59,680 nt of DNA. Origin: a virus. The stretch spans positions 1-59,680 of IMG/VR virus record IMGVR_UViG_3300044673_000126; one strand, given 5' to 3'. Under the pieces are notes generated by a model. That model did no database searches. It was not told where the DNA came from and worked only from the letters and a program-made list of their open reading frames with translations. Positions 32,744 through 57,100 of this stretch are shown one piece after another (positions within the stretch are counted from its first letter, which is position 1; each line of letters opens with the position of its first letter). The translations under genes were made by a program, and so were the position numbers.

Positions 32744-32817
32744 AACCCCAACCCAGTAGGTGCCAGGCGCTGGGTTTACACACAGAGTGCATCCTGGCGT
32801 GCACACAAGGAGGACAC

Positions 32818-33822
32818 ATGTCCAAGATCATCACCATCCTGGCCGCCATCAAGACCGCCCCCCATGCGGTGAGCGTGCGGGAGATCGCCGAGCGCACCAA
32901 CATCGACGGCGTCGCCACCAAGGTGAACCAGCTCGTGCGCACCGGCCTCGTGGTCGCCGGCACCCGGAACTGCGCCGGGAAGTTCTTCACCAACCCCGCC
33001 AAGCGCGCCACCGTGACCACCTTCCTTGGCGGCGAGGTCTACATCAAGAACACGCTCCAGAGCATCAAGTCAGCGCCCCACGCCATCAACATCACCCGCG
33101 GCATGACCATCGAGGCGTTGCTGGACGCCAAGCTGATCAAGGAGCACTCCCGCAAGCGCGGCTACTTCTTCACGAACCCCGACATGCAGGACGTGGTGGC
33201 CGAGTTCATGGCGCCCGGCCCCGTGCCCACGTTCCTGGTGCCAACCCCGCAGTCCACCCCCACCGTGGCCTCCCCCTCCGGCCTGGTGTGCAGCTCCCTC
33301 GACAAGCAGGTGCTGCGCGCCATCAAGTCGGCGCCCCACGCCGTCGACCACCAGGAGATCGTGCGTCTGGTCAACGACAACCCGCTGTGCGTGGGCACCA
33401 GCATCGGGTTCCTCGCCGGCCTCGGCCTGATCCGGATGCACCGCAGCAAGCCGAACCACTACTTCACGAACTCCGACAAGGCGGGTGAGATCAACACCCT
33501 GCTCGCCACCGTCGCCACGACCACGCCTCAGGGCGAGCCGGTGCCGACCGACGCCGTCCTCGCCATGCTCCGCCTCTCTGAGCACGGCATCAGCATGAAC
33601 GGCGTCTGGAAGGCGTTCGAGAAGCTGGTCGCCGAGGGCCTGGTCCGCGCCGACAAGCGCGACGTCGATGCCAAGAGCAAGGACGTCCGCTACTTCGTCC
33701 GCAAGGGCAAGCGCCGCGAGGGCGACCTCCGGGCGAAGGCCGACAAGCGCATCGCCAAGCTGATCGCCGGAAACGACGACCTCGTGGACTACGTGAACGA
33801 GGCCGCCGACTCCATCGGCTAG
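32818..33822 (+). CDS. Tandem winged-helix-like repeat protein, 334 aa
   Basis: GGAGG precedes the ATG at 32818. The protein holds three clear repeats of about 80 residues that start AIKTAPHAVS, SIKSAPHAIN and AIKSAPHAVD. Each has a recognition-like helix and ends in a Gly-Leu-Val/Ile turn followed by FFTNP or YFTNS. A fourth, weaker unit starts MLRLSEHGISMN. The layout is that of linked winged helices of a DNA-binding regulator. A copy of the TTCCGGA palindrome lies just upstream, so autoregulation is a testable idea. The C-terminus is basic and helical. No family name is certain. Confidence 0.65.
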   Translation: MSKIITILAAIKTAPHAVSVREIAERTNIDGVATKVNQLVRTGLVVAGTRNCAGKFFTNPAKRATVTTFLGGEVYIKNTLQSIKSAPHAINITRGMTIEALLDAKLIKEHSRKRGYFFTNPDMQDVVAEFMAPGPVPTFLVPTPQSTPTVASPSGLVCSSLDKQVLRAIKSAPHAVDHQEIVRLVNDNPLCVGTSIGFLAGLGLIRMHRSKPNHYFTNSDKAGEINTLLATVATTTPQGEPVPTDAVLAMLRLSEHGISMNGVWKAFEKLVAEGLVRADKRDVDAKSKDVRYFVRKGKRREGDLRAKADKRIAKLIAGNDDLVDYVNEAADSIG

Positions 33823-33918: not shown

Positions 33919-36900
33919 ATGTCTGAACTCTATGAGATCGCAGGCAGGGGCGCGATTGTTGTCCTTGGCTCCGGCCAACAGTGCGACCGGGACATCAGAA
34001 CCATCATGGATCATTGCCGCCGGTTCAACTCACTGCGGGTGGACAACTTGGCGTGCACATTCCCAGGCATGAACTGGGAAGTGTCGGGGCCCGTAGTAGG
34101 GGCGGCGAGCCCGAACACCATCTTCATCAGCACACTCAGTGCATCGCAGCCGGAAGACAAGGGGAGGACCTTGCGGTTGGAACGCATTGCGAGATCACTG
34201 GAAAACAACACCAACACGGGGGCGCACGAGGCCGCACTTGTCGCGCTCGCCGATGAGGGTGACCCGACGGCCACCTTCGCTCTGGCCGCAACCCGTGCCG
34301 CACTCGACTCGATGCGAGACTGCCCCCCGAGTGACCAGAACAACCTCTTTGTCTATACTCTCGGTGGAATCCGCTGTGCCCTGTCATCGACCCGTTACAG
34401 CACCTTCGCAACTCGAAGGATTCTCCGGAACCAGGACAAGGTCATCGACGCATGGCGGTGTGAACTCTCAATGCGGCTCATGACTGCCACCTGTTACAAC
34501 ACGGGGGTCTACTCGGATCCAAGGATCGCGTTTGCCGCTGGCGATCTGGTCAAGGAATACTACGACCTTCGGCGCGACAACCTCGTTGATCCGTATCGTG
34601 ACGAGATCTGCTTATCTCGCTCCGCATCCATCCAAGACGCCTACAACAATGTCTATCGCCGGGTCTCTGGTGTGGCAGCGGCACTCGACCCCACCAGTGA
34701 GCGGGGCGGCCCCGCGCTCTCCTATGGGGACTTCCAGATCAACGTCCACCTGGCGTATGGGATCCTCCGGTTCATGGGGCGAGCCCTTAACTCAGTGACT
34801 TCAGAGTCTGGGGCCAACGCTCTCAACCTCTCTGGGGCAGACACCTTCCCTGTCATCATTGGGCAGGGCCACATCGAGCGCGTCATGGCAGGCCTCGAAC
34901 TCATCAAGACCTGCTGCAACCTGATCAAGCTGGCACCACCGTGCCTCAAACCGAACATGGAGGGCGCCTTGCCCGCAAATCAATGGACGGCCAATATCCC
35001 CGAGCCGCACGTGGATATCTCTGAGAACGCCCGCGTTCGTGCGGCCATCCCCACGTGCACCAGGTGCGGTTGTGTTGCGCCCAACCCCGTCGTTCAGGGT
35101 GGCACCTTCCGTGGGCGTCCCGTCGAACTGGACGGGATACAGACTGATGCACGCTATTGCGCCTCGTGTGCCGAATCCATGCTCACACTGGCCTACGACA
35201 CGGCATCCTACCATCGGAGCAATAAAGTCATGTCCATCAGCGCCATGCGGGAAGCGCGCAGCACAGGGCATCGGAACGGTGTCAACATTCCCATCACTGC
35301 CGGGACGGTGTCGCAGTTCAATCGCACAGTGCTCTCCGCGTGTGGAGGGTGTGGCAACCCCACCTTCAACCGGGAGAAGGTGCTGGCCTTCACGGACCCC
35401 AACCCTGGAGTCCAGAGGCGCATCCGTCTCCTCGGAGATGGGGTCTCGATGACGGCCAACCAGGAAGAGTTCGATATGATCCCACAAGGACTCAACGACT
35501 GCTCCCGTCAGGGTCTGCCGTCAGATACCGTCATCATCCTCTCGACATCAGTGCTCGTCCACGACATGGAGAGCGACCCCTCCATGCGGTGCCGTAGATG
35601 CGCCAACCCGGCGCGGCTCTACCAGGATCCAGCGACGGGGAAGTATTACACCTCAATCGACGCCTCACCATCCGCCCCGGAGTATGGCTACAAGGTCCCC
35701 GACCCAAGCGGTAGGTTCCTTGACCGTGTCATCGGCATAGAGTTCGAGACCGGCCCGGGGTCGGCGCAGGTCGGTGTCGAGAGGATGGACGCCTTCCTCA
35801 ACGAGGCGTGTTCGGACGGCACGCACATCTGGCACATCCACGGGGACGGCTCCCTCATGGGTGGTGCCTGCGAGATCACGACGCCTCCCATCGGCGGCCT
35901 CGCCATCCCGATGGGCGTGGATGCGATGTTCAACCTCGCCAAGAAGTATGGGTTCAACATTGAGAACCGCTCGGCCGGGATGCACATCCACACAAACATC
36001 ACCGATCTGTTTGAAGTGATGATGCCGATCCGAACCAGGCATCGGGCGGGTGAGACTGCCGCTACCAACTCCTACCGAGAGTTCTGCAATCTGCTCGGTC
36101 GGTTCGGGGATGCCATGTCCCAGTTGAGCCGCCAGTTCGTGAGCAAGGCGCGGCGGAGCAACACCTACTGCCAGGGTGGATTCGGTGTCAGGTCCTGGAA
36201 CTGCGGGGACCAGGACCCGATGATGCGATACCAGAGCTCGTCCCTGTCTGGCAGATCCGCCGTGTGCATCCATCGGCATGATGGCTACGCCCGACGGACC
36301 AAGGTGACCTACACCCTGGAGAACCGCATCTGGCCCAGCAGCAACAGCAAGACCTATACCCTGGCTCGCGCAGAGTTGACGCAGAAGGCCATCGACAAGT
36401 TCGTCGGACTGAGTATCGAGTTCCTCAGTAATCCGGACGCCGCCCATCGTGCAGTGTTGGACCAGTTCGTCACGTTGGTCGAAACAACCCCAAGGCTCCG
36501 TATCGACAGGCGGGTCCAGGCAACAGTGGATCTGTTCGGGCTGTCGGACGAGACGAAGGCGGCGCTCGATGCCATTCATCGGCGTTACTTCTACATCTCC
36601 TACTATGCACATGAACACAATCTCTCTATGGGCTCGCCGGAAATTACCAATCTGGTCAAGGAGAGCCTGCGCAGTGTGGGTATCAACGATAGGACTGTGG
36701 ATGATCCCATGGCCTACACCGAACTAGCCGGAATCCTGGCGGCGAAGGGACTATCCTCACCGACTGTCCCCGATACCCTGCGCGTGCTGCACCACACGAT
36801 GAATATGGACACGACCATCGCATCGCTGGCGTGCGACCCTATGGCCACCGATGCCTCGGACCTTTCCTCCGCGGCCCCTCTCTCCATCGTCAACAACTAG
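33919..36900 (+). CDS. Amidoligase-like protein with Cys clusters, 993 aa
   Basis: The C-terminal half carries the signature order of COOH-NH2 amidoligases of the glutamine-synthetase-like type: GIEFE at about residue 607, GDGSL at about 643, EITTPP at about 652 and GMHIHT at about 687. That family joins a carboxylate to an amine using ATP. Four Cys pairs (near 380, 415, 475 and 558: CTRC, CASC, CGGC, CRRC) suggest zinc ribbons before the enzyme domain. The N-terminal ~370 residues are unrecognised. The next gene is a class II glutamine amidotransferase, the partner expected to supply ammonia. Substrate is unknown. Confidence 0.7.
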   Translation: MSELYEIAGRGAIVVLGSGQQCDRDIRTIMDHCRRFNSLRVDNLACTFPGMNWEVSGPVVGAASPNTIFISTLSASQPEDKGRTLRLERIARSLENNTNTGAHEAALVALADEGDPTATFALAATRAALDSMRDCPPSDQNNLFVYTLGGIRCALSSTRYSTFATRRILRNQDKVIDAWRCELSMRLMTATCYNTGVYSDPRIAFAAGDLVKEYYDLRRDNLVDPYRDEICLSRSASIQDAYNNVYRRVSGVAAALDPTSERGGPALSYGDFQINVHLAYGILRFMGRALNSVTSESGANALNLSGADTFPVIIGQGHIERVMAGLELIKTCCNLIKLAPPCLKPNMEGALPANQWTANIPEPHVDISENARVRAAIPTCTRCGCVAPNPVVQGGTFRGRPVELDGIQTDARYCASCAESMLTLAYDTASYHRSNKVMSISAMREARSTGHRNGVNIPITAGTVSQFNRTVLSACGGCGNPTFNREKVLAFTDPNPGVQRRIRLLGDGVSMTANQEEFDMIPQGLNDCSRQGLPSDTVIILSTSVLVHDMESDPSMRCRRCANPARLYQDPATGKYYTSIDASPSAPEYGYKVPDPSGRFLDRVIGIEFETGPGSAQVGVERMDAFLNEACSDGTHIWHIHGDGSLMGGACEITTPPIGGLAIPMGVDAMFNLAKKYGFNIENRSAGMHIHTNITDLFEVMMPIRTRHRAGETAATNSYREFCNLLGRFGDAMSQLSRQFVSKARRSNTYCQGGFGVRSWNCGDQDPMMRYQSSSLSGRSAVCIHRHDGYARRTKVTYTLENRIWPSSNSKTYTLARAELTQKAIDKFVGLSIEFLSNPDAAHRAVLDQFVTLVETTPRLRIDRRVQATVDLFGLSDETKAALDAIHRRYFYISYYAHEHNLSMGSPEITNLVKESLRSVGINDRTVDDPMAYTELAGILAAKGLSSPTVPDTLRVLHHTMNMDTTIASLACDPMATDASDLSSAAPLSIVNN

Positions 36901-36929
36901 CCCAGACGGGCATCCTAAGGAGCCACTAC

Positions 36930-38387
36930 ATGTGTGGTTTGTTTTCAATCTTCCCCAAGGAGGGCGCCGATGCCCTCTCCCTTCGTGTCCTCGCCCTGTT
37001 CCTCGGCGTCGGCAACGTGCCGAGAGGGCGTCACAGCTTCGGCATGTGGGGCAAGGGGATCCCTCCGTTCCGTTCCCTGGGGGCGATCACCGACGATGAC
37101 AACATCGCCAACTTCCGGTCGTTCATCTTCAACACCTGGCAACCGGAGGCCGGGGCGTGGATGGCTGGCCATACCAGGCAGGCAACACACGGTGCGAGAA
37201 CCATCGAGAACACGCATCCATTCGAGCTTGGGACACTGACCCTTGCTCACAACGGGGTCGTCAAGGTCGATGGCCTGACCGAGAAGGATCACCCCGTTGA
37301 CTCAGGGCAGATCGCCATCTCTGTGGTGACACACGGATGGGCGGGTGGCCTCGCCAAGGTGTCTGGGTCCTGCGGCCTTGTTGCCAGTGTGGGTGACAAG
37401 CTCTACCTCTACCGGCACTCCCAGGTCCTCCATGTCGCGGAGGGGCCATGGGGATGGGCCGTCTCGTCAGAGAAGTCTACCCTCAAAGAAGCGCTTGTGC
37501 TGGCTGGGCTCGAAGTCACATCCCTCGAACCCGTGGTGGAAGAGTATGTCACAGCTCCATGGGATGGCACCCACGAGAACTGCCCGGCCGCTGTCTACAA
37601 GGCGCCAGCCACCGAAGCCAAGTATGGCGGCTACGTCTGGGACTCGGATCGCTACGGCTACGAGGGTGGCTACGAGGGTGGCTATGACTACAGCCAGCAG
37701 CGAAGGGGCAAGGTTATCCCGTTCTCCCAGCCGCCCCTCACGAATGTCACCAAGTCCGAAGCATCTCGCGTCTCTGACGAGGAAGCCAAGAAGAAGTTTC
37801 TCACCCGCAGCGAGTCCGTCCTGATGGACAAGGATCGGGCTCACGAGAAGGCAGCCACCATGCTGCTGGCCCTCCGAGGAAAGAACACCAAGGGCGCCAT
37901 CGTCCTAAGCGCACAGAGTGCAACCCGCGCAGCACTCATCAAGAGGGCTGTCCTAGTGGAACGGTTCGAGCGTGAGATCATCCACGTCTACGACCCCAAC
38001 ACCAAGCAGACCACCCAGTGTCTCTCCTGCCTGAACGTCCCCCTCACGCAATACGAGAAGATGACGGACGAAGAGCGAGAAGTCCTGTGGGTGAAGGCCT
38101 ATGCCGAGACGCTGAACAACATTGGCGTCACGACAGAGGAGTTCATGGCGGCCCAGGAGGAATACGCAGAGGATGAGAGCTGCATCATCCTCAACGAGTC
38201 TGGTGTGTGCGACTGGTGTGGGACGGTTCGTGATGTGGACGATCTCACTGACCGGATCTTCGGGTCCGAGACCGTCAAGGTGTGCAAGTATTGTGACAGC
38301 GAGTTCAAGGCTGCACGAAGAGGCATGGACTACCGCTCCGTCAAGGGTGGCCGCCGCGATCAGCGGAGGGTCCGAGGCAACGCATGA
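36930..38387 (+). CDS. Class II glutamine amidotransferase with C-terminal zinc ribbons, 485 aa
   Basis: The ATG at 36930 (AGGAG upstream) gives MCGLFSI, placing the catalytic Cys at position 2 as this Ntn-hydrolase class requires; longer readings lose it. Other class motifs are present: HTRQATHG at 81-88, NTHPF at 94-98 and HNG at 107-109. The amidotransferase fold spans about residues 1-230. A Tyr/Gly-rich linker (near 245-255) and a Lys/Glu-rich part follow. CLSC and the CDWC...CKYC pair form C-terminal zinc sites. The domain would release ammonia from glutamine for the amidoligase encoded 29 nt upstream. Confidence 0.85.
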   Translation: MCGLFSIFPKEGADALSLRVLALFLGVGNVPRGRHSFGMWGKGIPPFRSLGAITDDDNIANFRSFIFNTWQPEAGAWMAGHTRQATHGARTIENTHPFELGTLTLAHNGVVKVDGLTEKDHPVDSGQIAISVVTHGWAGGLAKVSGSCGLVASVGDKLYLYRHSQVLHVAEGPWGWAVSSEKSTLKEALVLAGLEVTSLEPVVEEYVTAPWDGTHENCPAAVYKAPATEAKYGGYVWDSDRYGYEGGYEGGYDYSQQRRGKVIPFSQPPLTNVTKSEASRVSDEEAKKKFLTRSESVLMDKDRAHEKAATMLLALRGKNTKGAIVLSAQSATRAALIKRAVLVERFEREIIHVYDPNTKQTTQCLSCLNVPLTQYEKMTDEEREVLWVKAYAETLNNIGVTTEEFMAAQEEYAEDESCIILNESGVCDWCGTVRDVDDLTDRIFGSETVKVCKYCDSEFKAARRGMDYRSVKGGRRDQRRVRGNA

Positions 38388-45325: not shown

Positions 45326-45401
45326 GGGCCCATAGCTCAGTAGGGAGAGCGTTTGGTTTGCATCCAGGAGGTCGCCGGTTCGATCCCGGCTGGGTCCACC
45401 A
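45326..45401 (+). tRNA. tRNA-Ala (anticodon TGC)
   Basis: 76 nt with full cloverleaf: acceptor GGGCCCA/TGGGTCC (one G-T pair), D-arm GCTC/GAGC, anticodon loop TTTGCAT (TGC, reads GCA), T-arm GCCGG/CCGGC, encoded ACCA end. Lies between SSB2 and a small Lys-rich gene. Confidence 0.95.
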
Positions 45402-45428
45402 GCAACACTGATCCCACAGGAGGGGAGC

Positions 45429-45584
45429 ATGGCGAAGGAAAAGGGAATGCCGCCCTGGGCAAGCAAGAAGGCAAAGGCTGCTGACGAGAAGGCCGACAAG
45501 AAGAAGGGCCTGAAGGAAGGTAGCAAAGCTGACATGGCAGCCGATAAGGCCATCGCCAAGAAGTTCCCGCCCAAGAAAAAGTAG
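45429..45584 (+). CDS. Small Lys/Ala-rich protein, 51 aa
   Basis: GGAGGGGAGC precedes the ATG at 45429. The 51-residue product is about one third Lys (ends IAKKFPPKKK) with acidic spacers; helical and probably nucleic-acid or membrane interacting. No family named. Confidence 0.55.
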   Translation: MAKEKGMPPWASKKAKAADEKADKKKGLKEGSKADMAADKAIAKKFPPKKK

Positions 45585-45587
45585 TCC

Positions 45588-46595
45588 ATGAAGCGGCCGA
45601 CTGGACAAGCCTGGAGGAACTGGAAGAAGGGTCGGATTCGACAGCGGGTCAAGGCGGGGCTGCCCCCCACCCCAGAGTCATGGGATGACGAGTGGTCCCG
45701 CCTCAGCACACCCGCCCCAACCGTAACCCACACACCATTACCGTCACCAGATCTGTCAGCCGATGAGATTGTGGATTATAGAATCCAGAAGTTTGATCGC
45801 AAGCAGGCATACGAGAACTCCCGCAAGCTCATTGACGTTCAGATCCCCGTCAGTGGTCCTTACGGGATTCTCCATTTTGGGGATCCACATGTTGATGACG
45901 ATGGCACGGACCTCGGTTCGCTCCGACGGGACATGCGTCTGGTTCAGAACACAGAGGGGCTCTTCGCCGCCAACATTGGCGACACTCGAAACAACTGGGT
46001 TGGTCGCCTGGCTCGTCTCTATGGCGATCAAGGGACTTCGGCTAGAGAGGCACTTATCCTCGCGGACTGGTTTATCCGCGGACTCCAGGGTAAGTGGGCT
46101 TACCTCATCGGTGGCAACCACGATGCGTGGTCTGGTGCTGACGATCCCCTTGAGTGGATCACTACCCAGATCAGAGCGTTGTATGAGCCGAGTGAGGCTC
46201 GGATACGTCTCGTCTCCCTCTCGGGTGAGCCGGTCATTATCAATGCGAGGCACGACTTCAAGGGGTCGAGCCAGTGGAACACGGCCCACCCGGTCATGAA
46301 GGCAGCGATGCTTGGAGTGCGCGACGACATCTTCGTGTGTGGCCACAAGCACCACAGTGGCTACGGTGTCCTGAAGTCCCCAGACGATGGCCGCATCTGT
46401 CACTGCATGCAGATCTCGACCTACAAGATCTACGACAGGTTCGCCAGAGAGAAGGGGTTCAGGGACCAGCACATCAGCCCGTGTATCGTAACGGTCATCG
46501 ACCCAGATGCGCCCCTCATCAACCGAGTCCAGGTGTTCTGGGACCCGGTCGCTGGCGCTGAATACCTGACATACTTGAGGGGCCGCAAGGGGTGA
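45588..46595 (+). CDS. Calcineurin-like metallophosphoesterase, 335 aa
   Basis: Has the five metal motifs in order: GDPH at about 98-101, GDTRNN at about 131, GGNHD at about 173-177, the ARHD His at about 219 and CGHKHH at about 250-255. Hydrolyses phosphodiester or phosphomonoester bonds with two metal ions. The N-terminal 60 residues are basic and Pro-rich. A second, shorter phosphoesterase lies at 49181-49819. Substrate unknown. Confidence 0.85.
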   Translation: MKRPTGQAWRNWKKGRIRQRVKAGLPPTPESWDDEWSRLSTPAPTVTHTPLPSPDLSADEIVDYRIQKFDRKQAYENSRKLIDVQIPVSGPYGILHFGDPHVDDDGTDLGSLRRDMRLVQNTEGLFAANIGDTRNNWVGRLARLYGDQGTSAREALILADWFIRGLQGKWAYLIGGNHDAWSGADDPLEWITTQIRALYEPSEARIRLVSLSGEPVIINARHDFKGSSQWNTAHPVMKAAMLGVRDDIFVCGHKHHSGYGVLKSPDDGRICHCMQISTYKIYDRFAREKGFRDQHISPCIVTVIDPDAPLINRVQVFWDPVAGAEYLTYLRGRKG

Positions 46596-46598
46596 CGC

Positions 46599-46808
46599 AT
46601 GCCGTGGACGCTGACGGAGGGCGAGGAGGGCTACCTCCTGTGTCACCTCACGGGTCACATCGCCGAGCCGTATGGCGTCATCACGGACCAAGCCAAGGCC
46701 ATCCACCTGATCGAGGTTCTCGAATGGGCGGAGGTCCTTGGTAAGGCTGGTGTCATCCCGGCCCCGCCAAGATTCAAACCAAAACGCGGTGCGAAGCGCG
46801 CACCATAG
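46599..46808 (+). CDS. Hypothetical protein, 69 aa
   Basis: Starts 3 nt after the phosphoesterase stop. Helical 69-residue protein with a basic end (PRFKPKRGAKRAP). Unrecognised; may be co-translated with the phosphoesterase. Confidence 0.55.
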   Translation: MPWTLTEGEEGYLLCHLTGHIAEPYGVITDQAKAIHLIEVLEWAEVLGKAGVIPAPPRFKPKRGAKRAP

Positions 46809-46821
46809 AAGGAGGAACGCG

Positions 46822-47274
46822 ATGAGTAAATGCTTGGAGTTATCACTGTTAAAGACCGGGGGCATCATCTTTAGCGATGATGACTCGATTGATCGGGTCG
46901 ACTTCCTGGCTGATGTGAGAAAGGGCGACGCGGTGTGGGTCATATACCGGGACGGCTCTATGGAGCGGGCCTTGGTCCGGGGTAGCAGCGAGCTACCACC
47001 ACCCACAACACCCGAGCCCACCAAGAGCGTTCTGCTTGAGGCCGAGTCCCTGGTCAATGGGGATCGGCGTGCTGCTTACGGCGACGTCAAGCTCAACTTC
47101 GGGCGATGGGCCGATGCATGCAAGGCCCACGCTATCGACGTCACGCCGGCCCAGCTTGCCATGATCATGGTCCTGGGCAAGCTCTCCAGGGAAACCAATA
47201 AGAAGAAGCGAGACAACATCGTCGACGCTTGTGGATACCTGGAGTTGTATTATAGGTTGATCGACGATCTTTGA
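46822..47274 (+). CDS. DUF6378-like protein, 150 aa
   Basis: GGAGG before the ATG at 46822. The C-terminal half (NGDRRAAYGDVKLNFGRWAD, then LGKLSRETNKKKRDNIVDAC) matches the DUF6378 pattern widespread in phages, a small helical domain of unknown role that resembles MazG-like pyrophosphatases in layout. The N-terminal 65 residues are beta-rich. Nucleotide clean-up is a guess. Confidence 0.65.
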   Translation: MSKCLELSLLKTGGIIFSDDDSIDRVDFLADVRKGDAVWVIYRDGSMERALVRGSSELPPPTTPEPTKSVLLEAESLVNGDRRAAYGDVKLNFGRWADACKAHAIDVTPAQLAMIMVLGKLSRETNKKKRDNIVDACGYLELYYRLIDDL

Positions 47275-47289
47275 TTCTGGCGCCCGCCC

Positions 47290-47620
47290 AACCCGAGAAC
47301 GGGAACATGCGAGGGGGATATAACCAGACCGCAGACCACCGGGGTAACCCCGACCTGCCGCCAAGCAATGCCGCACGGGAGGAGTGCGGGGACGTTAGCG
47401 CCCGTGCCGCTGTCCCCAGCTTGCAGCAAACCCACTGAGCAGTAGCCTGCATCTAGCTCAAACGACCCATCCTGCGTAGCGGGGTGGACTTAAAGGTGCT
47501 CACCACACCGCCTACGGGCAAGCCCATAGGTTGGAAAGAGTCGGGTGATTCCGGGATGGGGCCAGTCAAACCCCGAGCATCCACGGGTAGCGCCGTGGCA
47601 GTGGGTCCTTCAACCATTTT
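47290..47620 (+). ncRNA. Candidate structured RNA between DUF6378-like and nucleotidyltransferase genes
   Basis: The 360-nt gap holds no convincing gene but many hairpins: CGGGG-TAA-CCCCG (47340-47352), CCGCAC/GTGCGG (47371-47389), CCTACGGGC-AA-GCCCATAGG (47511-47530), CCACGG/CCGTGG (47581-47598) and GGATGGGG with CCCC...CATCC (47554-47582). Also GGGGAC near 47388 can pair with GTCCCC near 47412. This density is far above the coding regions. I cannot name a class. The adjacent nucleotidyltransferase makes an RNA link plausible. Confidence 0.55.
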
Positions 47621-47636
47621 CTTAGGAGGCACATAG

Positions 47637-48380
47637 ATGCCACTCGCAAATCTAACCAAGGAAGACCTGGCGTGGGCCGTCCACCGGATGCGTCCCCCAG
47701 TGATTGATATCCTCAGGAATCACCCAGGAGCAGTGTTCGTGGCAGGCGGATTTGTCCGGTCCTGTGTTGCGGGGGAGAAGATCAACGACATTGATCTCTT
47801 CTGCGATACGCCCAACCGAGCACGCGATCTGGCTGCCCAGGTTGCAGGGGTCACCCGGAACTCGCTGCATACTTCCGAGAATGCTCACACCGTGAGGACC
47901 AGGCCATACGCCACGCAGTTCATTAGTCGGTGGACATTCACCTCACCCGAGCAGTGCATCGAGTCCTTCGACTTCACCATCGCGAAGGCTGCCATCTGGT
48001 GGGACGGGAGTGCGTGGGTAGGCAAGTGCGATGAGCGGTTCTACGCCGACCTCGCGTCCAAACGGCTCGTCTATACCTCTCCTGTTCGAGAGGAGGAGGC
48101 GGGCGGTTCCATGCTGCGCGTGCTCAAGTTCTACCAGCGCGGCTATCGCATCCCCATGGATTCACTTGGCGAGGTCATCGCCCGGATCGCGGCATCTGCC
48201 GGTGATGCGATTGTCACAGGTGACGAGCCACTTGGCCCCATCATCACCAGCCTGCTCAGGGAGGTTGATCCCGACATCGACCCAGAGCATCAATCCCATC
48301 TTCCATCCACGACAGATCAGCTCTCCACCCAGCTCCTCGGCTCTACTGTTCCTGTTTCCCTTCCCCCAATATACTTTTAA
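47637..48380 (+). CDS. Nucleotidyltransferase (poly(A) polymerase-head type), 247 aa
   Basis: Motif FVAGGFVRSCVAGEKINDID at about residues 35-54 is the Gly-Gly plus Asp-x-Asp catalytic core of class II nucleotidyltransferases (CCA-adding and poly(A) polymerase heads). EQCIESFDFTIAK near 105 supplies the third acidic residue and RVLKFYQRGYRI near 162 the following helical domain. It starts after AGGAGG and lies between a structured RNA and tRNA-Thr. RNA tailing or tRNA repair is the likely role; target unknown. Confidence 0.75.
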   Translation: MPLANLTKEDLAWAVHRMRPPVIDILRNHPGAVFVAGGFVRSCVAGEKINDIDLFCDTPNRARDLAAQVAGVTRNSLHTSENAHTVRTRPYATQFISRWTFTSPEQCIESFDFTIAKAAIWWDGSAWVGKCDERFYADLASKRLVYTSPVREEEAGGSMLRVLKFYQRGYRIPMDSLGEVIARIAASAGDAIVTGDEPLGPIITSLLREVDPDIDPEHQSHLPSTTDQLSTQLLGSTVPVSLPPIYF

Positions 48381-48386
48381 CCTAAC

Positions 48387-48462
48387 GCCTGCGTAGCTCA
48401 GTTGGTAGAGCACCTGCCTTGTAAGCAGGGGGTCGTCGGTTCGATCCCGGCCGCAGGCTCCA
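48387..48462 (+). tRNA. tRNA-Thr (anticodon TGT)
   Basis: 76 nt: acceptor GCCTGCG/CGCAGGC, D-arm GCTC/GAGC, anticodon stem CCTGC/GCAGG with loop CTTGTAA (TGT, reads ACA), T-arm, encoded TCCA end. Begins 6 nt after the nucleotidyltransferase stop. Confidence 0.95.
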
Positions 48463-48473
48463 CGGAGAGTCAC

Positions 48474-48689
48474 ATGACAACCGAATATGAACCAGAGCTC
48501 ACCTTTGAGGGCAACGTCAGGGCCGCCATGCGTGGCATCTATGGGACCGGCATAACCAAGCAAGAGGAGGCTGTTGTCAACGAGCTGTCTGGCTTGATGG
48601 CAAAGGCCTACGAGGACGGGTGGATGGACGCCAGGGCACAGTGGATGGCATGCGGGAACATAGATGAAGTCCCTAATAAAATGGAGTGA
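48474..48689 (+). CDS. Hypothetical protein, 71 aa
   Basis: ATG at 48474, just after the tRNA. Acidic helical protein (EEAVVNELSGLMAKAYEDGW). Unrecognised. Confidence 0.55.
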   Translation: MTTEYEPELTFEGNVRAAMRGIYGTGITKQEEAVVNELSGLMAKAYEDGWMDARAQWMACGNIDEVPNKME

Positions 48690-48692
48690 ACC

Positions 48693-49184
48693 ATGACCAA
48701 AAAGAGAGAGGCACTGCCGAGGGTTTTCCATCGCATCATCAAGCCGGGTGAGCAGATTGACTGGGGAGACCCATCGGTCCAGGACCTGGTCGATGCGAAC
48801 GATGGCCTGTGTGCGCAACTGAACGTAGTCCGAGGCCGCCTCGCCCAGCGTGACCGCGAGGTTCTGGGATTGACCGAAGCGCTGGGTAAGGTGCGGGAGG
48901 AGATCGGCGGTTGTCTTGAGCGTGATGCTGCGGCATTCATGCGAATGACCCTCGCGGAGTCAGATGCCTGGGGTATCGCACGGCACAACCAGAGCCACGG
49001 CTACGTCTTGGACACGATCAAGGCCGCCCTCGCCTCCACCGCCCAGGCCGGGGCAGAGGCCGAGCGCAAGGTGCTGGAAGCCGCGTGGGAGCGGTTGCTT
49101 GCCGCGTTCCCACCGGATGGCGTAGATGGTGAAGTGGTGAAGGCTGCCAAGTCCGCCATCCTCGGCACGAAGGGTATGGGATGA
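48693..49184 (+). CDS. Hypothetical protein, 163 aa
   Basis: ATG at 48693, 3 nt after the previous stop. A long Ala/Glu/Arg-rich protein with two probable coiled coils (about residues 35-75 and 115-150). It overlaps the next phosphoesterase start (ATGA). Unrecognised. Confidence 0.55.
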   Translation: MTKKREALPRVFHRIIKPGEQIDWGDPSVQDLVDANDGLCAQLNVVRGRLAQRDREVLGLTEALGKVREEIGGCLERDAAAFMRMTLAESDAWGIARHNQSHGYVLDTIKAALASTAQAGAEAERKVLEAAWERLLAAFPPDGVDGEVVKAAKSAILGTKGMG

Positions 49185-49819
49185 GGATCGTCTGTATCTC
49201 CGACACCCACAGTCAGACCATCAGGGTCCCGCCCTGCGACCTTCTCATCCACGCTGGTGATCTAACCAACCGAGGAACCACCCAGGAAGTTGCGGCCGGC
49301 CTCAAGTGGCTTAGAGACAGTGGAGCAAGGCGCATCATCCTAGTGCCCGGCAACCATGACTGGCTATTCCAGAGGGATGCCGAGCTCGCCGCCAGTATGT
49401 GCGATGACAATGACGTCACCCTCCTGGTGGACAAGGAGACAGTGGTCGAGGGGGTCCGCATCTACGGTTCACCTTGGCAGCCATGGTTCATGGACTGGGC
49501 ATTCAATGCTCCACGGGATCCATCGGAGGGGGCTGACTTCCTTGACGAGAAGTGGGCTGCAATCCCGGAAGACACTGATATTCTTGTCACCCACTGCCCG
49601 CCGACCGGTGGTGGGAGGCTTGATGATGGTCGAGACATTGGGTGTCCTAGGCTCACCAGCCGGATTCGATATCTCAACCTGGACCTACATGTATTTGGTC
49701 ATGCGCATAGCGGGTATGGGGTGTATTGCAGTAGCAATACGAAGACCACATCCATCAACGCTTCAATCTGTGATGAACACTACCGGGCGATCAACGCCCC
49801 CATCCTTGTGAGGATCTAG
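49181..49819 (+). CDS. Metallophosphoesterase, class III type, 212 aa
   Basis: Compact phosphoesterase with RIVCISDTHS at 2-11, HAGDLT at about 24-29, VPGNHDW at about 54-60, VTHCPPTGGG near 131-140 and GHAHSGYG near 171. These are the metal ligands of the MPPED-type family. Second phosphoesterase of the genome; overlaps its neighbours at both ends, implying an operon with them. Confidence 0.85.
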   Translation: MRIVCISDTHSQTIRVPPCDLLIHAGDLTNRGTTQEVAAGLKWLRDSGARRIILVPGNHDWLFQRDAELAASMCDDNDVTLLVDKETVVEGVRIYGSPWQPWFMDWAFNAPRDPSEGADFLDEKWAAIPEDTDILVTHCPPTGGGRLDDGRDIGCPRLTSRIRYLNLDLHVFGHAHSGYGVYCSSNTKTTSINASICDEHYRAINAPILVRI

Positions 49820-49995
49820 TGAAGACCGACAAGAACTACCGACCCTACAATAGCTCCACCCCCATCGACAACGGCAGCATCATGCGTGTCACCCCACACC
49901 CCAAGGCGTGGGCCGGTGACAAAGAACGCTGGATCATCGACACCTGGGATGGTGACTCCATCGTGTGCGTGGAGGTCAGATGCCAAGGGGCCTGA
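49819..49995 (+). CDS. Hypothetical protein, 58 aa
   Basis: The GTG at 49819 overlaps the phosphoesterase stop (TAGTGA). A 58-residue protein (RVTPHPKAWAGDKERWIIDT) whose stop overlaps the next start (TGATG). Unrecognised. Confidence 0.5.
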   Translation: MKTDKNYRPYNSSTPIDNGSIMRVTPHPKAWAGDKERWIIDTWDGDSIVCVEVRCQGA

Positions 49996-50294
49996 TGCCA
50001 GAGCAAAGGGGCGCCCTGCTCGCCGACTGCCGGGCGGTAGCCGAGGCAATGGGCGGGGCATGCCTGTCAACGGAATACATTAACGCCAAGACCAAGATGC
50101 GTTGGCGGTGTGAGAACGGGCACGAGTGGGAGGCCACACCACACAATGTCAGGCATGCGACATGGTGCCCACACTGCTATGCTGAACGTCGCGGGTCCGT
50201 CCCCGGGCGCTACCCGGCGTGCTCCGAGAACGGCATCCTGGGCTACACCAATGAACAGATCGAGGCGATGGCCTCCGGAGGGTCGAATGGGTAA
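49995..50294 (+). CDS. Treble-clef zinc-ribbon protein, 99 aa
   Basis: ATG at 49995 with AAGGGG upstream. The segment MRWRCENGHEW...WCPHC at about residues 34-60 matches the zinc-ribbon domain often linked to restriction or homing nucleases and to phage accessory proteins. It ends overlapping the next gene. No nuclease domain is attached here. Confidence 0.6.
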   Translation: MPEQRGALLADCRAVAEAMGGACLSTEYINAKTKMRWRCENGHEWEATPHNVRHATWCPHCYAERRGSVPGRYPACSENGILGYTNEQIEAMASGGSNG

Positions 50295-50502
50295 GAAACA
50301 ACTTTCCATCCACGTCAGGGGGAACTCGAAGGAGTGGTCCTTCACCTTCTTGGGGGATCCCAGATGCCTGGCCGAGTGGCGTGCAGATGGCCTTGAGATC
50401 GACGAGGTCTTGAACACCATCCCCACGTGGGTCCCCGCTTCTATGATCCGTCCTTGGTGCATCGTCCAGGACATAGTCAACTTCAAGTGGCCGTGGGCCT
50501 AA
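50287..50502 (+). CDS. Hypothetical protein at head of cassette array, 71 aa
   Basis: ATG at 50287, overlapping the previous gene. The 71-residue product (SIHVRGNSKEWSFTFLGDP, ending VNFKWPWA) is unrecognised. Its stop codon lies inside GCCTAAC, the first core of the first attC site, just as cassette genes end. Yet the core expected at the start of such a cassette is not visible upstream, so it may be a native phage gene to which cassettes were added. Confidence 0.55.
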   Translation: MGKKQLSIHVRGNSKEWSFTFLGDPRCLAEWRADGLEIDEVLNTIPTWVPASMIRPWCIVQDIVNFKWPWA

Positions 50503-50630
50503 CGCCACAGCTAACCGGCCCCGCCGGAGAAAGGGAAGAAATGAGGATCGGAGATGTAGCAAATAATCCAGGACTGTTGCCTGGGGGAGAAACACCCAAG
50601 GCGGGGTCCGAGTTGAGCGGAGGGTTGGGC
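50497..50630 (+). repeat. attC site A (134 nt)
   Basis: Cores GCCTAAC (50497-50503) and GTTGGGC (50624-50630). The arm CGGCCCCGCC pairs with GGCGGGG-T-CCG, and GCTAAC with GTTGAGC. The central loop is long (about 75 nt) and holds a ribosome site and an ATG. Confidence 0.85.
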
Positions 50631-50846
50631 GAGGTCTTCAAGATCGAGTACCGGCTGACCCTCGATTTTCAGGCCACCTCGCTTGAGGGCATCAAAGCCC
50701 GCCTTCCGAAGGGAGCCCAGATCCTCGCCATCAACGACCGCGAGTTCGTGTCTTTCTGCGAGGCGTGCGGCAAGCCCATCTGCGAAGGCGACGGGTGGCA
50801 CCAGGCAGAAGATGTTTACCTTTGTCGCCCCTGCGGCGATGAGTAG
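50541..50846 (+). CDS. Zinc-ribbon cassette protein, 101 aa, start uncertain
   Basis: The frame is open from the ATG at 50541 (GGGAAGAA upstream, in the loop of attC A) through the attC 3' arm into cassette 2. The C-terminus (FCEACGKPICEGDGWHQ, YLCRPCGDE) holds a four-Cys zinc ribbon. If cassette 2 was translated alone it would start nearer 50630, but no clear start is seen there. So this protein may be a fusion made by cassette insertion. Unrecognised role. Confidence 0.55.
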   Translation: MRIGDVANNPGLLPGGETPKAGSELSGGLGEVFKIEYRLTLDFQATSLEGIKARLPKGAQILAINDREFVSFCEACGKPICEGDGWHQAEDVYLCRPCGDE

Positions 50847-50847
50847 C

Positions 50848-50908
50848 GCCCAACGCCCGGAGCTAGCTCGGCCCCGCAGGGGTCCGACGCTGAGCGACAT
50901 GGTTAGAC
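50848..50908 (+). repeat. attC site B (61 nt)
   Basis: Cores GCCCAAC (50848-50854) and GTTAGAC (50902-50908). CCCC-GCA-GGGG forms the tip, then an unpaired T and CCGA/TCGG. It directly follows the stop of cassette 2's gene. Confidence 0.85.
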
Positions 50909-50940
50909 CGCGAATAGAAACCAACCAAAGGAGGACCGGC

Positions 50941-51210
50941 ATGAGCGATGCCAACAATTTCACGACCAACCCCGTGCTGCTGGAGGTTGCCGCCGAGCGC
51001 AACCGGCAGGACGGGAAGTGGGGCACGGCGCAGGACGACAAAAATAACCCACTCGACTGGCACGAAATCATCGCCGACTACAACGGGTGGGCACGGCGGA
51101 TGCTCTGCATGGGGAGCATTGACAAGGGGCGTCGGCGACTGATCCAGGTCGCGGCCATCGCTGTGGCCGCCGTGGAAGCACTTGATCGGCGATTCCCGAG
51201 AGCGGTCTAA
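50941..51210 (+). CDS. Cassette protein, 89 aa
   Basis: AAAGGAGG sits upstream of the ATG at 50941, and the stop TAA lies inside the core of attC C. The helical segment LLEVAAERNRQDGKWGTAQ, then LIQVAAIAVAAVEALDRR, matches a small family common in phages and cassettes that resembles MazG-like nucleotide hydrolases in layout. Function not proven. GC content is near that of the phage. Confidence 0.65.
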   Translation: MSDANNFTTNPVLLEVAAERNRQDGKWGTAQDDKNNPLDWHEIIADYNGWARRMLCMGSIDKGRRRLIQVAAIAVAAVEALDRRFPRAV

Positions 51211-51301
51211 CGACTCAAGCGCACCGGCCCTGCCGCAGGTGAGCCACAACCTTTCAAATATCGGACTTGCGGCAGGGTCCGAGTGGAGCGCTGGGTTGAG
51301 C
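51205..51301 (+). repeat. attC site C (97 nt)
   Basis: Cores GTCTAAC (51205-51211) and GTTGAGC (51295-51301). CCCTGCCGCA pairs perfectly with TGCGGCAGGG (10 bp), then an unpaired T and CGG/CCG. Confidence 0.85.
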
Positions 51302-51323
51302 GCAACCTTGAGGGAGAGGCTAA

Positions 51324-51512
51324 GTGAGAATCGAAATACAGAGGAATGAAAGCAGCCTACCAATTATCTATGGAAATGCTATCAACGCATTTACAAAGGG
51401 GCAGATGTATTGCGTCCTCTTCGAGCACAACCAATCGAGAGTGACCCATAAATTCCCACTGTCCTCGATATTCAGGGTTATTGAGGATTACCCAGACAGT
51501 AAGCGGGATTAG
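51324..51512 (+). CDS. AT-richer cassette protein, 62 aa
   Basis: GTG start at 51324 with GGGAG upstream. The 62-residue product (SSLPIIYGNAINAFTKGQMY, ending VIEDYPDSKRD) is unrecognised. Its codons are clearly AT-richer than those of all neighbours, a sign of separate origin. It ends 1 nt before attC D. Confidence 0.6.
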   Translation: MRIEIQRNESSLPIIYGNAINAFTKGQMYCVLFEHNQSRVTHKFPLSSIFRVIEDYPDSKRD

Positions 51513-51513
51513 C

Positions 51514-51572
51514 GCCCAACTTTCGAGCTAACCGGCGCCGTCAGGCGTCCGGGTTGAGCGAGCCGGTTAGCC
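51514..51572 (+). repeat. attC site D (59 nt)
   Basis: Cores GCCCAAC (51514-51520) and GTTAGCC (51566-51572). 59 nt is the classic attC length. CGCC-GTCA-GGCG forms the tip; unpaired T before CCGG. The sixth core base is C rather than a purine, and the next half-site has the matching change. Confidence 0.8.
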
Positions 51573-51601
51573 GAGCCACGACGAAAACAAAAGGAGAAAA
51601 C

Positions 51602-51817
51602 ATGGAAGCAACCTTCAAAGTAAAACTCAAGCCGTTCACTGTCCCGAATTATGTCTTGGTCGATTTGCCCCCCGGCAAACGGGAGGATGGTTTTACGGAA
51701 GGGCCGAAGTATCGTCTTGAGGATCTGGACCCAGTGACACTCGAAGCCATGTGTGACGAGTTCCGCGATGCAGTGTTCGGTAAGGCGAAGAAGTCACGCC
51801 CGCCCATGGTCGGCTAA
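51602..51817 (+). CDS. Cassette protein, 71 aa
   Basis: AAAAGGAG upstream of the ATG at 51602. Unrecognised 71-residue protein (KVKLKPFTVPNYVLVDLPPG, ending AKKSRPPMVG). Its stop lies inside GGCTAAC, the half-site E. Last cassette gene before tRNA-Pro. Confidence 0.6.
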   Translation: MEATFKVKLKPFTVPNYVLVDLPPGKREDGFTEGPKYRLEDLDPVTLEAMCDEFRDAVFGKAKKSRPPMVG

Positions 51818-51818
51818 C
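51812..51818 (+). repeat. attC half-site E (truncated)
   Basis: GGCTAAC is the exact complement of the core that starts this cassette (GTTAGCC), but no partner core or second arm is found downstream. The array therefore ends in a broken attC, probably where cassettes joined phage DNA. Confidence 0.65.
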
Positions 51819-51840
51819 TTTGTACTAGGCGAACTAACAC

Positions 51841-51917
51841 CCGCGAGTAGCTCAGTCTGGTGGAGCGCCTGCTTTGGGGGCAGGGGGTCGCAGGTTCAAA
51901 TCCTGTCTCGCGGACCA
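51841..51917 (+). tRNA. tRNA-Pro (anticodon TGG)
   Basis: 77 nt: acceptor CCGCGAG/CTCGCGG, D-arm GCTC/GAGC with long loop, anticodon stem CCTGC/GCAGG with loop TTTGGGG (TGG, reads CCA), T-arm CAGG/CCTG, encoded ACCA. Directly after the cassette array. Confidence 0.95.
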
Positions 51918-53613: not shown

Positions 53614-54111
53614 TCAGGACTCCTGCCAGACTTTGATCAATGGGTATGTCCTGACCTTCCGTCCATTCACATTAACATAGACCTCGCCGCGGATCTGCCG
53701 GCGCGGCTGGCTAGCACTCATCCCAACATGAACGCACCCACGTTCAAGGATGAGCTGGTCGATGAGTCGCATGATGCTCGGTGTTGCTTGTATGGCGGCG
53801 AACAGCGCTTCTACCTTCCCATTCATGGGGTAGATGTCGGCAGCCAGCCCATCACAGTGGGCACTCGTGGAGCTTGCACCAGGAATGGCCGCGTTAAGTG
53901 TGACCCCGCGGAACCCAGAGTGCAGCGACCCACCCTTAACCTTCTCGCTCATGCTCCCAGGCCATAGCTTCTCCGCCAATTCAAACACCATGTCGGCGAC
54001 GGGCATCAGGATGTTGCGGATGTTGGCTTCCTGCTGTGCGCTGGGACGGTTCTGGATCCCCATACGCGCAGCGGTCTCAGAGTATAGGTAGTCTTCGTAG
54101 CTGAACCCCAT
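53614..54111 (-). CDS. M15-type peptidase endolysin, 165 aa
   Basis: ATG at 54111 overlaps the giant gene's stop; a GTG at 54114 is also possible. SGFR at about 67-70, then SAHCDGLAADI at about 85-95 (His and Asp zinc ligands) and ERGCVHVGM near 130 (His ligand) are the signature of M15 D-Ala-D-Ala carboxypeptidase-like endolysins, which cut peptidoglycan cross-links. No signal peptide is visible, so export depends on the holin. Confidence 0.85.
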   Translation of the reverse strand: MGFSYEDYLYSETAARMGIQNRPSAQQEANIRNILMPVADMVFELAEKLWPGSMSEKVKGGSLHSGFRGVTLNAAIPGASSTSAHCDGLAADIYPMNGKVEALFAAIQATPSIMRLIDQLILERGCVHVGMSASQPRRQIRGEVYVNVNGRKVRTYPLIKVWQES

Positions 54112-57100
54112 CACTCACCCCCGCCCATACGCTCCTCGACCAGCGACTCGTTGCGGAGCTCCTCCTCCATGCGCCTCGAACCACTGCCCACGTTCGGGAC
54201 AATGATCATGTCTGGGCGCTTGATGTTGCTCATTGCATCGTTCCATGCCCGGATCTCATTCCAGTTCTTCTCTGTAAGATTCCCGTTTTCAAACGCCTGC
54301 TTGAGCCGCTTGATAGCACTGGAGCGCTCGTCCTTAAGCTGACGGTTCGCGGCGTCCTGCTCATAGATCATGGCAGTCTTCTGTGGCGTCACTCCAATGG
54401 CCTTCGCGGCGCGCTCGGCGGGGGTCATCTGGTAGAACTCCTCTGTCCCGCGCATAGGCTTTCTGCCAGGGGCATGCCGCCCGATCCAGAAGGCATCAAC
54501 CAGGTTGGCTGCTCCGGATGGTGCCGCGATCTGGGCCACACCACCGACATAGTCCCCCTGCTCGATCCTTCTGGACCCACGGCGGAGGCTCTCGACAGCA
54601 CCAGTGTTGGCGCCAAGCGACAGGTTGGCGAGGTTCTCCTGCCAACTCTTGTGCGTGTCCACAGAGACTGGGCCCTCACCCATGCTCAACTGAGCGCCGA
54701 AACCATAGAGCGGCGGGATCAACCCGAAGATGCCGGCCGCGGCGAAGCTGGCTGTGCGTGGGCCAAACTTCTCGCGGACCCACTCAATGTAGTCGCGCTT
54801 GACGTCATGGATCGGGGGCTTCCCGCTGATCCTGGAGAGAAGGTTCCAGATGTATGACATCAGGTCCGCCAGCAAGCCGGCAAGTGGGGGGCCGAAGCTG
54901 CCGCCAAGGAGCATCGCGGCGAGCGCACCGTAGGCAGTGCTCTTCATGGAGGCCACCGTGGCAACGGACGCGTGTCGTCCCTCGGCTTCGAGCCGACGAG
55001 CAGTGATGCCCATGTCAGAGATCCACCCACGCAGCACGTTGATGGGGTAGAGCCGGAACAGGACCACCGTCTTCATGAACGCAGCAGACCGGCCGTTCCC
55101 CTCTGGGTTCCAGATCTTCTCATTGCCGAACCCACGCCCCGTATTGAAGTTGGCGTGCGCCGACTGACGCTGGGCGAACGTCATGATCCGGTTGTAGGCC
55201 TCGTCCTTGGTCATCGCTTCGAGCTGGGCCTTGGTGACATCGCTGTTCCGATACCGCTGGGCGAGCTCCTGGCGGACTTGGGCCTCCAGGTCGCCATAGG
55301 TCAGGCGGGAGTAACCCTCGTCCGAGATGGAGACGTAGCCATACTGCGCCCAGATGCCAGTTTTCTTCCCGGCGCTCTTGGCCCTGGACTCAGTAGCTGC
55401 ACCGACAACGTAGGACACGATGTCTCGGATGCGGTTGAGGTTCTCCCCCTTGTTGGCAACGTAGGTGAGGATATCCTTGGTTCCTTCCTTCGCCTGAGAG
55501 AGCTTAGTGGTGTGCGTCGCTCGGCTGATGTCATTGGCCGCAACATCCTCCACGCCAATCTGCATACCGACGTTCACATCTTTGAAGCTAGAGCCCTGGA
55601 TGACTCGGTGCATGACCTCCTTCACGATGGGCCGCATGCGGTCAGCCTCTTCCTGGGTTGCCCAGATCTTGGAGAAATTCTGGAAAGAGAAGATCTCATC
55701 CATGCGCGCATCAAGCACGGCCCTGTCGATCATAGACAGATCCGCGCCAGGCTTGGCCATCAGCGCCAGTAGCTTCACGGCTGCATTCTCAGAGGCCCTG
55801 ATGAGCGGCTCAGTGTAGCCAGTGTCATACATGGCCATCATGTGGGGGCGGCTGGTTGTGAACTGCTGGAAATACTGCGCGGCGCCAAAGGAGATCTTCG
55901 CCATCAGCGCCTTGTAGGCTGTGAACGTGCGGAGCGCGTTGAATGCACCGACAACGCCATCCGCACTGCGCTGCGGAGCGAATGTCGCAAGTGTGTAGTT
56001 CAGGAGCTGGTCGTAGTCCTTCTGGGAGAGCCCATCGGACACTTCAACATGGCGACGGTAGGCGTTGAGCTCCTCGCGGAGGTCGCCTGCGTAGAGGAGG
56101 GACCCTGCCATGTAGCCGGCGGCCCGGCCGTGCATAGAGAGCGCACCGATGATGTCCTCGGAGTAGCCAGCGGTGTTGTTGCGCGCATACTTCAGGCGCC
56201 CCTTGATGTCGGAGGCGCCGGCCATGTAGCGCAAGTCACGGAGCATCGCGCTACGGGCATCCCCAGAGACGCCACCGGCACGATTGTCGATGATCTCCTG
56301 TAGAACTTCGGTGGTGAGCATGCCACCAGCCATCTTGACGAACTTCAGATGGTCATTGTCGCGGAGCTCGCCGCTGTTGGACTCAACGAATCGCCCCTCG
56401 AAGTGATGCCCGAACTTGATTCGGCCAGCCTCGATGTCCTTGCGGAGCTGTGCCTCGATACGATCCGGACTTCCAACGCGGTCAGCCTCTGCCCACAGCT
56501 TGTTCGCGTGCTGCCGAACCATCTGGTCAATAGCAAGCCCCCGGACATCATCCGGGATCTTTGTCTCGCTGTGGCCGGTATCGACCATGATCATACCGAT
56601 GCGATTGCCGTCGGCATCTACCATGTCGAGCTGGCGCGTGGCCTTCTCGTTGCGGAGCAGGGAGATGAAGACGGGGTTCTTCTGGATGATGGAGCGCAAA
56701 GTGTCTGTCTCATCCTCAAACTCGGATACCTTCTTCTCCAGGGCCATGAACTGCTCGTCAAACTTCTCATCTGCTGGGTCCAGCGCGTTCTGCTCGTCGC
56801 GCAACTGGGCCACCTTCGACATGGCCTCTCGGTCGAGGGCTGCCAGGGTCACCTTCTGGATGCCGCGGATGACGTCAACCACCTTGCGGTAGAGCTTCGA
56901 GCCCTCCTCGTCAAGGCCGTATCGGTTGGCAAGCTCCGCCCCATTGATGACCCGTTCCTGGACGCTGCTGTCCATCAGGGCACGTCCGAGCATGGTATAG
57001 GACTGCCCGTCTGTGTCGCGCAGGGAGGCCAGGGCCTTGAGTGTTGGCTGGAGCCCACCCACGATGGAGTCAGCGGCGTGCCGATACATCAGTGCCAGGT

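Follow-up and report, generated by a model that had tools for sequence, protein, structure and literature searches.

The window, which is the whole stretch of viral DNA analysed (59,680 nucleotides), carries two adjacent genes for an extremely divergent amidoligase of 993 residues and a class II glutamine amidotransferase (GATase). Both enzyme classes are assigned with high confidence. The pair is probably a two-gene amide-forming cassette of a podovirus and a reduced relative of the cassette published for other phages. That phages carry such a pairing has been recognised since 2009, and cassettes of this kind recur across podoviruses and beyond. The new elements are the very divergent 993-residue member, which bears putative zinc ribbons and a family-less N-terminal region and occurs in a reduced form, and a comparison that divides the phage cassettes into two kinds. 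The features of the two genes are the following:

33919..36900, + strand: 993-residue amidoligase of the COOH-NH2 ligase superfamily, Amidoligase_2-like and multidomain (open reading frame and profile scores)
33919..35046, + strand: N-terminal region, residues 1-376, of no known family
35056..35169, + strand: putative zinc ribbon 1, C380xxC383 ... C414xxC417
35341..35601, + strand: putative zinc ribbon 2, C475xxC478 ... C558xxC561
35638..36588, + strand: amidoligase domain as modelled with AlphaFold2, residues 574-890, predicted GS/GCS-like fold
35734..35748, + strand: GIEFE motif, residues 606-610
35839..35889, + strand: HGDGSL (641-646) ... EITTPP (652-657) motifs
35977..35997, + strand: GMHIHTN motif, residues 687-693
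36151..36171, + strand: RRSNTYC, residues 745-751, equivalent to RxxNxFC of phage amidoligases
36319..36327, + strand: ENR, residues 801-803, equivalent to the E-x-R motif
36930..38387, + strand: 485-residue class II GATase of the phiEco32/LUZ24 type (PHROG 4736, profile and tree)
36930..37574, + strand: Ntn-hydrolase glutaminase domain with the Cys2 nucleophile, RG..S, GH.R.AT.G and HNG
38208..38294, + strand: C-terminal zinc-ribbon Cys pairs C427/C430 and C452/C455, invariant in 10/10 aligned phage GATases

The ends of the window hold a near-exact direct repeat of 243 bp (positions 1-243 and 59438-59680; one mismatch), and an independent, 99.99% identical IMG/VR contig (IMGVR_UViG_3300045051_000289) reads across the joined ends. 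The window is therefore a complete genome of about 59.4 kb, which rules out that it is a fragment merely deprived of other cassette genes. The terminase, portal, capsid and internal virion protein are encoded on the - strand, at approximately 5.9-25 kb. The amidoligase/GATase pair is placed on the + strand in the early/replication-type half, with a RecE-like exonuclease following about 2.3 kb later; this half also holds other exonucleases. Profiles for the COOH-NH2 ligase, ATP-grasp and GGCT genes gave no match anywhere in the complete genome, and the same profiles do recover such genes in loci outside their building set (e.g. L010, L015, L050-L055). Searches of the genome with PF12224 and PF14395 also gave no match. 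Elsewhere in the window, a 1708-residue open reading frame with no Pfam or PHROG match (54111-59237, - strand) adjoins a Peptidase_M15-like gene (53614-54114). Three tRNA genes (Ala, Thr and Pro) lie within 45326-51917, and the one for Thr comes just after the end of a nucleotidyltransferase gene (47637-48380) whose head domain weakly resembles those of the PolyA_pol/CCA-adding type.

The initial annotation described a 993-residue open reading frame followed 29 nt later by a class II GATase with Cys at position 2, and the open reading frame coordinates and PHROG 4736 bear this out. The amidoligase starts with ATG, its stop ends at 36900 and the next ATG lies at 36930. Good ribosome-binding sites precede both genes (AAGGAGA for the amidoligase, AAGGAG for the GATase). 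The gene directly upstream of the amidoligase (32806-33822, + strand) encodes a 338-residue protein with about three copies of a winged-helix-like 'IKSAPHAV/INI...' unit; its PHROG matches are weak and leave the function unassigned, and the protein is a possible regulator of the same operon.

The GATase begins with MCGLFSIF and contains all the motifs Cys2, GHTRQATHG, THPFE and HNG. With the GTG start 99 nt farther upstream, the catalytic Cys would be internal to the chain; the ATG at 36930 is therefore the probable start. The match to PHROG 4736 covers the full length of the family (residues 1-461 against 1-458 of 498, E=2.4e-20), whose label 'L-glutamine-D-fructose-6-phosphate aminotransferase' corresponds to the phiEco32-type phage GATase. 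The Pfam GATase_6 score is below the cut-off (21.3 vs 27 bits). A tblastn search returned 156 phage records, and the matches listed show 27-31% identity and are mostly phiEco32-like. Peptide patterns recovered no GATase relatives from viral contigs, and the PDB sequence search gave no match for the GATase or for the amidoligase alignment. In the alignment with nine phage GATases, the elements C2, RG, GH.R.AT.G, HPF, HNG and DS are invariant, as are C427, C430, C452 and C455. The protein has three CxxC pairs (at 364, 427 and 452; 0.04% in shuffles), and the invariance of the ribbon Cys across the aligned phage GATases makes them a family trait and not an oddity. The full-cassette GATase profile scores the protein at 76 bits, vs 33 bits for the two-gene profile. 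In the tree of the glutaminase domain it groups with the full-cassette GATases (support 100/99).

The motif series of the amidoligase, initially listed as GIEFE, GDGSL, EITTPP and GMHIHT, is present and is extended by RRSNTYC and ENR. GIEFE, DGSL, E652, HIH, RRSNTYC and ENR align with family-conserved positions of phage amidoligases, and each element of the catalytic series (GxExE, DGS, E, HxH, R..N..C, ExR) is either invariant or aligned with them. A loss of the acidic residues in homologues had been put forward as grounds to reject the assignment; distant homologues retain both the acidic and the His residues. A profile of 15 phage amidoligases scores the protein at 23.6 bits, mainly over residues 616-697; the top score among 1000 shuffles is 4.2 bits, and among the other ~478 open reading frames of the window it is 0.9 bits. 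With a wider amidoligase profile the score is 29.8 bits vs 3.0 for shuffles and 0.9 for the other open reading frames. The matches to known amidoligases span mainly about 100 residues, and the match of the isolated domain to PHROG 7469 'amidoligase enzyme' (E=0.006) is weak taken alone. The 993-residue protein is thus an extremely divergent amidoligase and the lone outlier of the window against the phage-amidoligase profiles.

The whole protein has no amidoligase match in Pfam (PF12224, PF14395), NCBIfam or PHROGs. The profile check against Amidoligase_2 (PF12224) that the initial annotation proposed gave no match at E<=10, also with the isolated domain; consequently, the protein is not filed as a PF12224 member and is a divergent amidoligase by the other tests only. 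Its assignment as a COOH-NH2_lig (PF14395) enzyme is rejected, since the score of 1.9 bits equals the background. Neither tblastn against 50,697 phage records nor peptide patterns applied to 2.9 million viral contigs revealed a close relative, and a scan of genome contigs with the Acinetobacter relative as query found nothing.

The structure prediction agrees with the glutamine synthetase (GS)-like fold that was initially expected, the absence of which had been the other ground for rejection. The AlphaFold2 model of residues 574-890 was built on a thin alignment of 18 rows, the other 17 of which are distant phage amidoligases, and is of moderate confidence (pLDDT 60, pTM 0.69), with residues 742-797 poorly modelled (pLDDT under 50). 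The best solved match of this model is YbdK (Z 12.5, rmsd 4.7, 222 residues aligned), followed by Dop (Z 11.2), GS (10.4) and PafA (9.9). In BFVD the model matches phage amidoligases with E down to 3e-6, and the matches include a 1071-residue 'amidoligase enzyme' of an uncultured phage (E=0.011). The amidoligase domain is therefore predicted to have a glutamine-synthetase/gamma-glutamyl-cysteine-ligase-like fold. Single-sequence AlphaFold of all 993 residues gave no usable model (pLDDT 33).

The N-terminal region (residues 1-376) has no convincing match in Pfam, PHROGs, NCBIfam or PADLOC and no detectable relation to the N-terminal region of the MEP401 amidoligase. The PADLOC defence match to Cas8a (E=0.011) and the NCBIfam choice-of-anchor match (E=0.026) were judged chance. 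This region is followed by four CxxC pairs (380, 414, 475 and 558), and at least four occur in 0.4% of shuffles (P=0.004). The Cys pairs of the amidoligase and of the GATase would bind zinc. The initial annotation regarded them as unusual, which proved wrong: the GATase ribbons are invariant in all ten aligned sequences, and amidoligases with ribbons stand beside GATases in other phages. CxxC pairs are absent from all 15 amidoligases sampled first (266-567 residues; 14 of them from GATase-bearing cassettes). They are found in the amidoligases of MEP401/402 and metagenomic relatives, ctgrD200, Marvin, the Acinetobacter phage and loci L047 and L048, and the neighbour of these ribbon-bearing amidoligases is a class II GATase. 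Hence neither the ribbons nor the gene pairing are retained as unique to the window. The distance from the last CxxC to the catalytic GxExE is 48 residues in the window and 32-49 in the other ribbon amidoligases measured. The comparison of the ribbons suggests more than one gain of a substrate-docking module.

Class II GATases free ammonia from glutamine, and GS-like ligases use ATP to form an acyl phosphate that is then attacked by an amine. In the proposed mechanism, the removal of Met1 from the GATase would expose Cys2 as the nucleophile, and glutamine would be hydrolysed with release of ammonia. The amidoligase would activate a carboxylate with ATP as an acyl phosphate and join it to an amine, which would most simply be the ammonia of the partner GATase and would yield a primary amide. 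Given that no second ligase was detected, amidation of a carboxylate by GATase-derived ammonia is the simplest reaction. The most likely substrate would be a peptide or protein carboxylate, for example in peptidoglycan stem peptides or a host protein. The zinc ribbons may be docking or recognition elements, and the modification might change the host envelope or host proteins. A peptide, peptidoglycan or protein carboxylate has about an even chance of being the target, and the narrower choice of peptidoglycan is less likely than not. Least favoured as a target is the phage's own particle, since the virion genes lie on the - strand and the pair lies apart from them, in the early/replication-type half on the + strand; this argument from position alone is not decisive. 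A rather doubtful variant makes the 993-residue protein a self-contained ligase that modifies proteins under the guidance of its zinc ribbons, a phage arrangement distantly like that of Dop/PafA. The N-terminal region and the ribbons would then choose a host protein, which the GS-like domain would amidate or conjugate with the ammonia of the GATase; if true, this would be a phage-encoded protein amidation system and not a cell-wall enzyme.

The amidoligase and the GATase are likely to act together, although their adjacency and tight spacing alone do not prove a complex. It is improbable that mere inheritance explains their adjacency and that each acts on its own. Among full cassettes the two genes differ in order and spacing, and there are amidoligases with no detectable GATase nearby (L011, L044, L046), which fits separate action; on the other hand, these two genes repeatedly stay together in the reduced loci of distant phages. 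Most phage relatives are likewise paired with a glutaminase. This fits an ammonia supply better than hydrolysis and argues against a degradative amide-removing pair, in which the GS-like domain would run backwards as a Dop-like deamidase/isopeptidase beside a GATase that is also a hydrolase. Dop, a deamidase/depupylase, is among the best solved matches, and the fold at this level does not separate ligases from hydrolases, but the ligases YbdK, PafA and GS appear in the same match list at similar Z. A reversed reaction is thus very improbable.

A metabolic role is unlikely. The two genes would then be auxiliary metabolic genes that direct nitrogen to amino acids or to small metabolites of the gamma-glutamyl type, with no macromolecular target; the best solved fold match, YbdK, is a small-molecule gamma-glutamyl-cysteine ligase-like enzyme, which fits such a role. 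A nitrogen-metabolism role was proposed for the GATase, amidoligase, glutathione synthase-like and cyclotransferase genes of Phage-ZRK32, which stimulates growth with nitrate or ammonium (PMC10945688). However, that set includes ATP-grasp and cyclotransferase genes, which are missing from the window, and ribbons together with a 370-residue N-terminal region would be unexpected in a small-metabolite ligase. The ribbons in both proteins, and the location of the genes in the half with the RecE-like and other exonucleases, would suit a target in phage or host nucleic acid or in a protein bound to it. The ribbons would bring the ligase to DNA or RNA, and an amide or amino-acid adduct would protect the phage DNA or alter the host RNA polymerase or ribosomes. 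This explanation is quite unlikely: no base-hypermodification or 7-deazaguanine gene was recognised among the ~30 main window proteins scanned (PHROGs and/or Pfam), and zinc ribbons often serve protein contacts instead of nucleic-acid binding.

The preferred reading is a reduced amide-forming cassette. Because the genome is complete and holds the cassette in a naturally reduced form, the two genes retained may represent its minimal set, and the window pair is the simplest one for biochemistry. Should these two proteins suffice for amide formation, the contribution of the other three cassette genes and the identity of the substrate could be tested directly. None of the papers searched reports an experiment on the enzymes of such a phage cassette.

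The pairing is not out of the ordinary: it is the core of a published phage 'peptidoglycan modification' cassette (PMC5498523, PMC10580990, PMC3890496, PMC11945000). This cassette, repeatedly annotated in phages (PMC3890496, PMC6209634, PMC10580990), comprises GATase II, COOH-NH2 ligase, amidoligase, ATP-grasp and GGCT genes (Iyer et al. 2009, as cited in PMC5498523 and PMC10580990). Peptidoglycan peptide modification and superinfection exclusion were proposed for the phiEco32/LUZ24/RIO-1-type cassettes (PMC5498523, PMC10580990, PMC11945000). The window resembles these cassettes in its GATase, homologous over the full length including the C-terminal Cys pairs, in the homologous amidoligase core and in the closely placed genes on one strand of the early/replication half, and both proteins fall on that side of the trees. 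It differs in that no COOH-NH2 ligase, ATP-grasp or GGCT gene was detected and in that its amidoligase has 993 residues, four CxxC pairs and the 370-residue N-terminal region, whereas the 15 relatives sampled have 266-567 residues and no CxxC. In the Rhizobium phage RHph_N3_13 (L007 1-7465) one amidoligase is flanked by two GATase genes, one of which falls among the two-gene GATases of the tree.

The MurT-GatD pair of Staphylococcus aureus has a Mur-ligase fold and a different glutaminase class and is not homologous in kind to the window pair. It is alike by analogy only, as an ATP-dependent ligase and glutaminase pair that is co-transcribed and amidates a peptidoglycan carboxylate (PMC3267633), and in this sense it is a working model for the possible action of the window pair.

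A similar gene arrangement is seen in gp05-gp06 of the Methylophilales phages MEP401/MEP402 (PMC10580990), in which the amidoligase gene is directly followed by the GATase gene and, as in the window, the ATP-grasp, GGCT and COOH-NH2 ligase genes are absent. Their amidoligase likewise has an extended N-terminal region, and its Cys-pair ribbon precedes GIExE by 35 residues (48 in the window). Unlike the window, it has 546 residues and one ribbon, the GATase has 289 residues and no ribbon, both enzymes belong to the other clade of the trees and the N-terminal regions are not detectably related. In Mycobacterium phage Marvin (gp105-gp106), too, a class II GATase comes after a ribbon amidoligase and the other cassette genes are absent, but the Marvin amidoligase is short (453 residues), has the ribbons at the very N-terminus and forms a separate clade. 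The deposited name of Marvin gp105 (L043 2836-4197), 'glutamine amidotransferase domain protein', looks wrong, as this protein is the amidoligase with the N-terminal Cys pairs, and the GATase is gp106; related mycobacteriophages have proteins deposited under the same name. In locus L048 (170-5147; IMGVR_UViG_3300024493_000013) a GATase-like open reading frame precedes two different ribbon-associated amidoligases; a frame change separates the second of them from a Cys-rich open reading frame upstream of it.

The GATase profile has a match close to the amidoligase in the full-cassette loci, the MEP401-type loci, ctgrD200, Marvin, Acinetobacter 313, L047 and L048. The profiles found no COOH-NH2 ligase, ATP-grasp or GGCT gene in the complete genomes of MEP401, ctgrD200 and Marvin. 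Together with the window, these genomes point to at least two kinds of phage cassette, full and two-gene. The long branch of the window amidoligase (3.75) makes its tree placement unsure, and that of the GATase is firmer. The window mixes the two types: its gene content and ribbon layout are those of the two-gene kind, and both of its enzymes group with the full-cassette kind.
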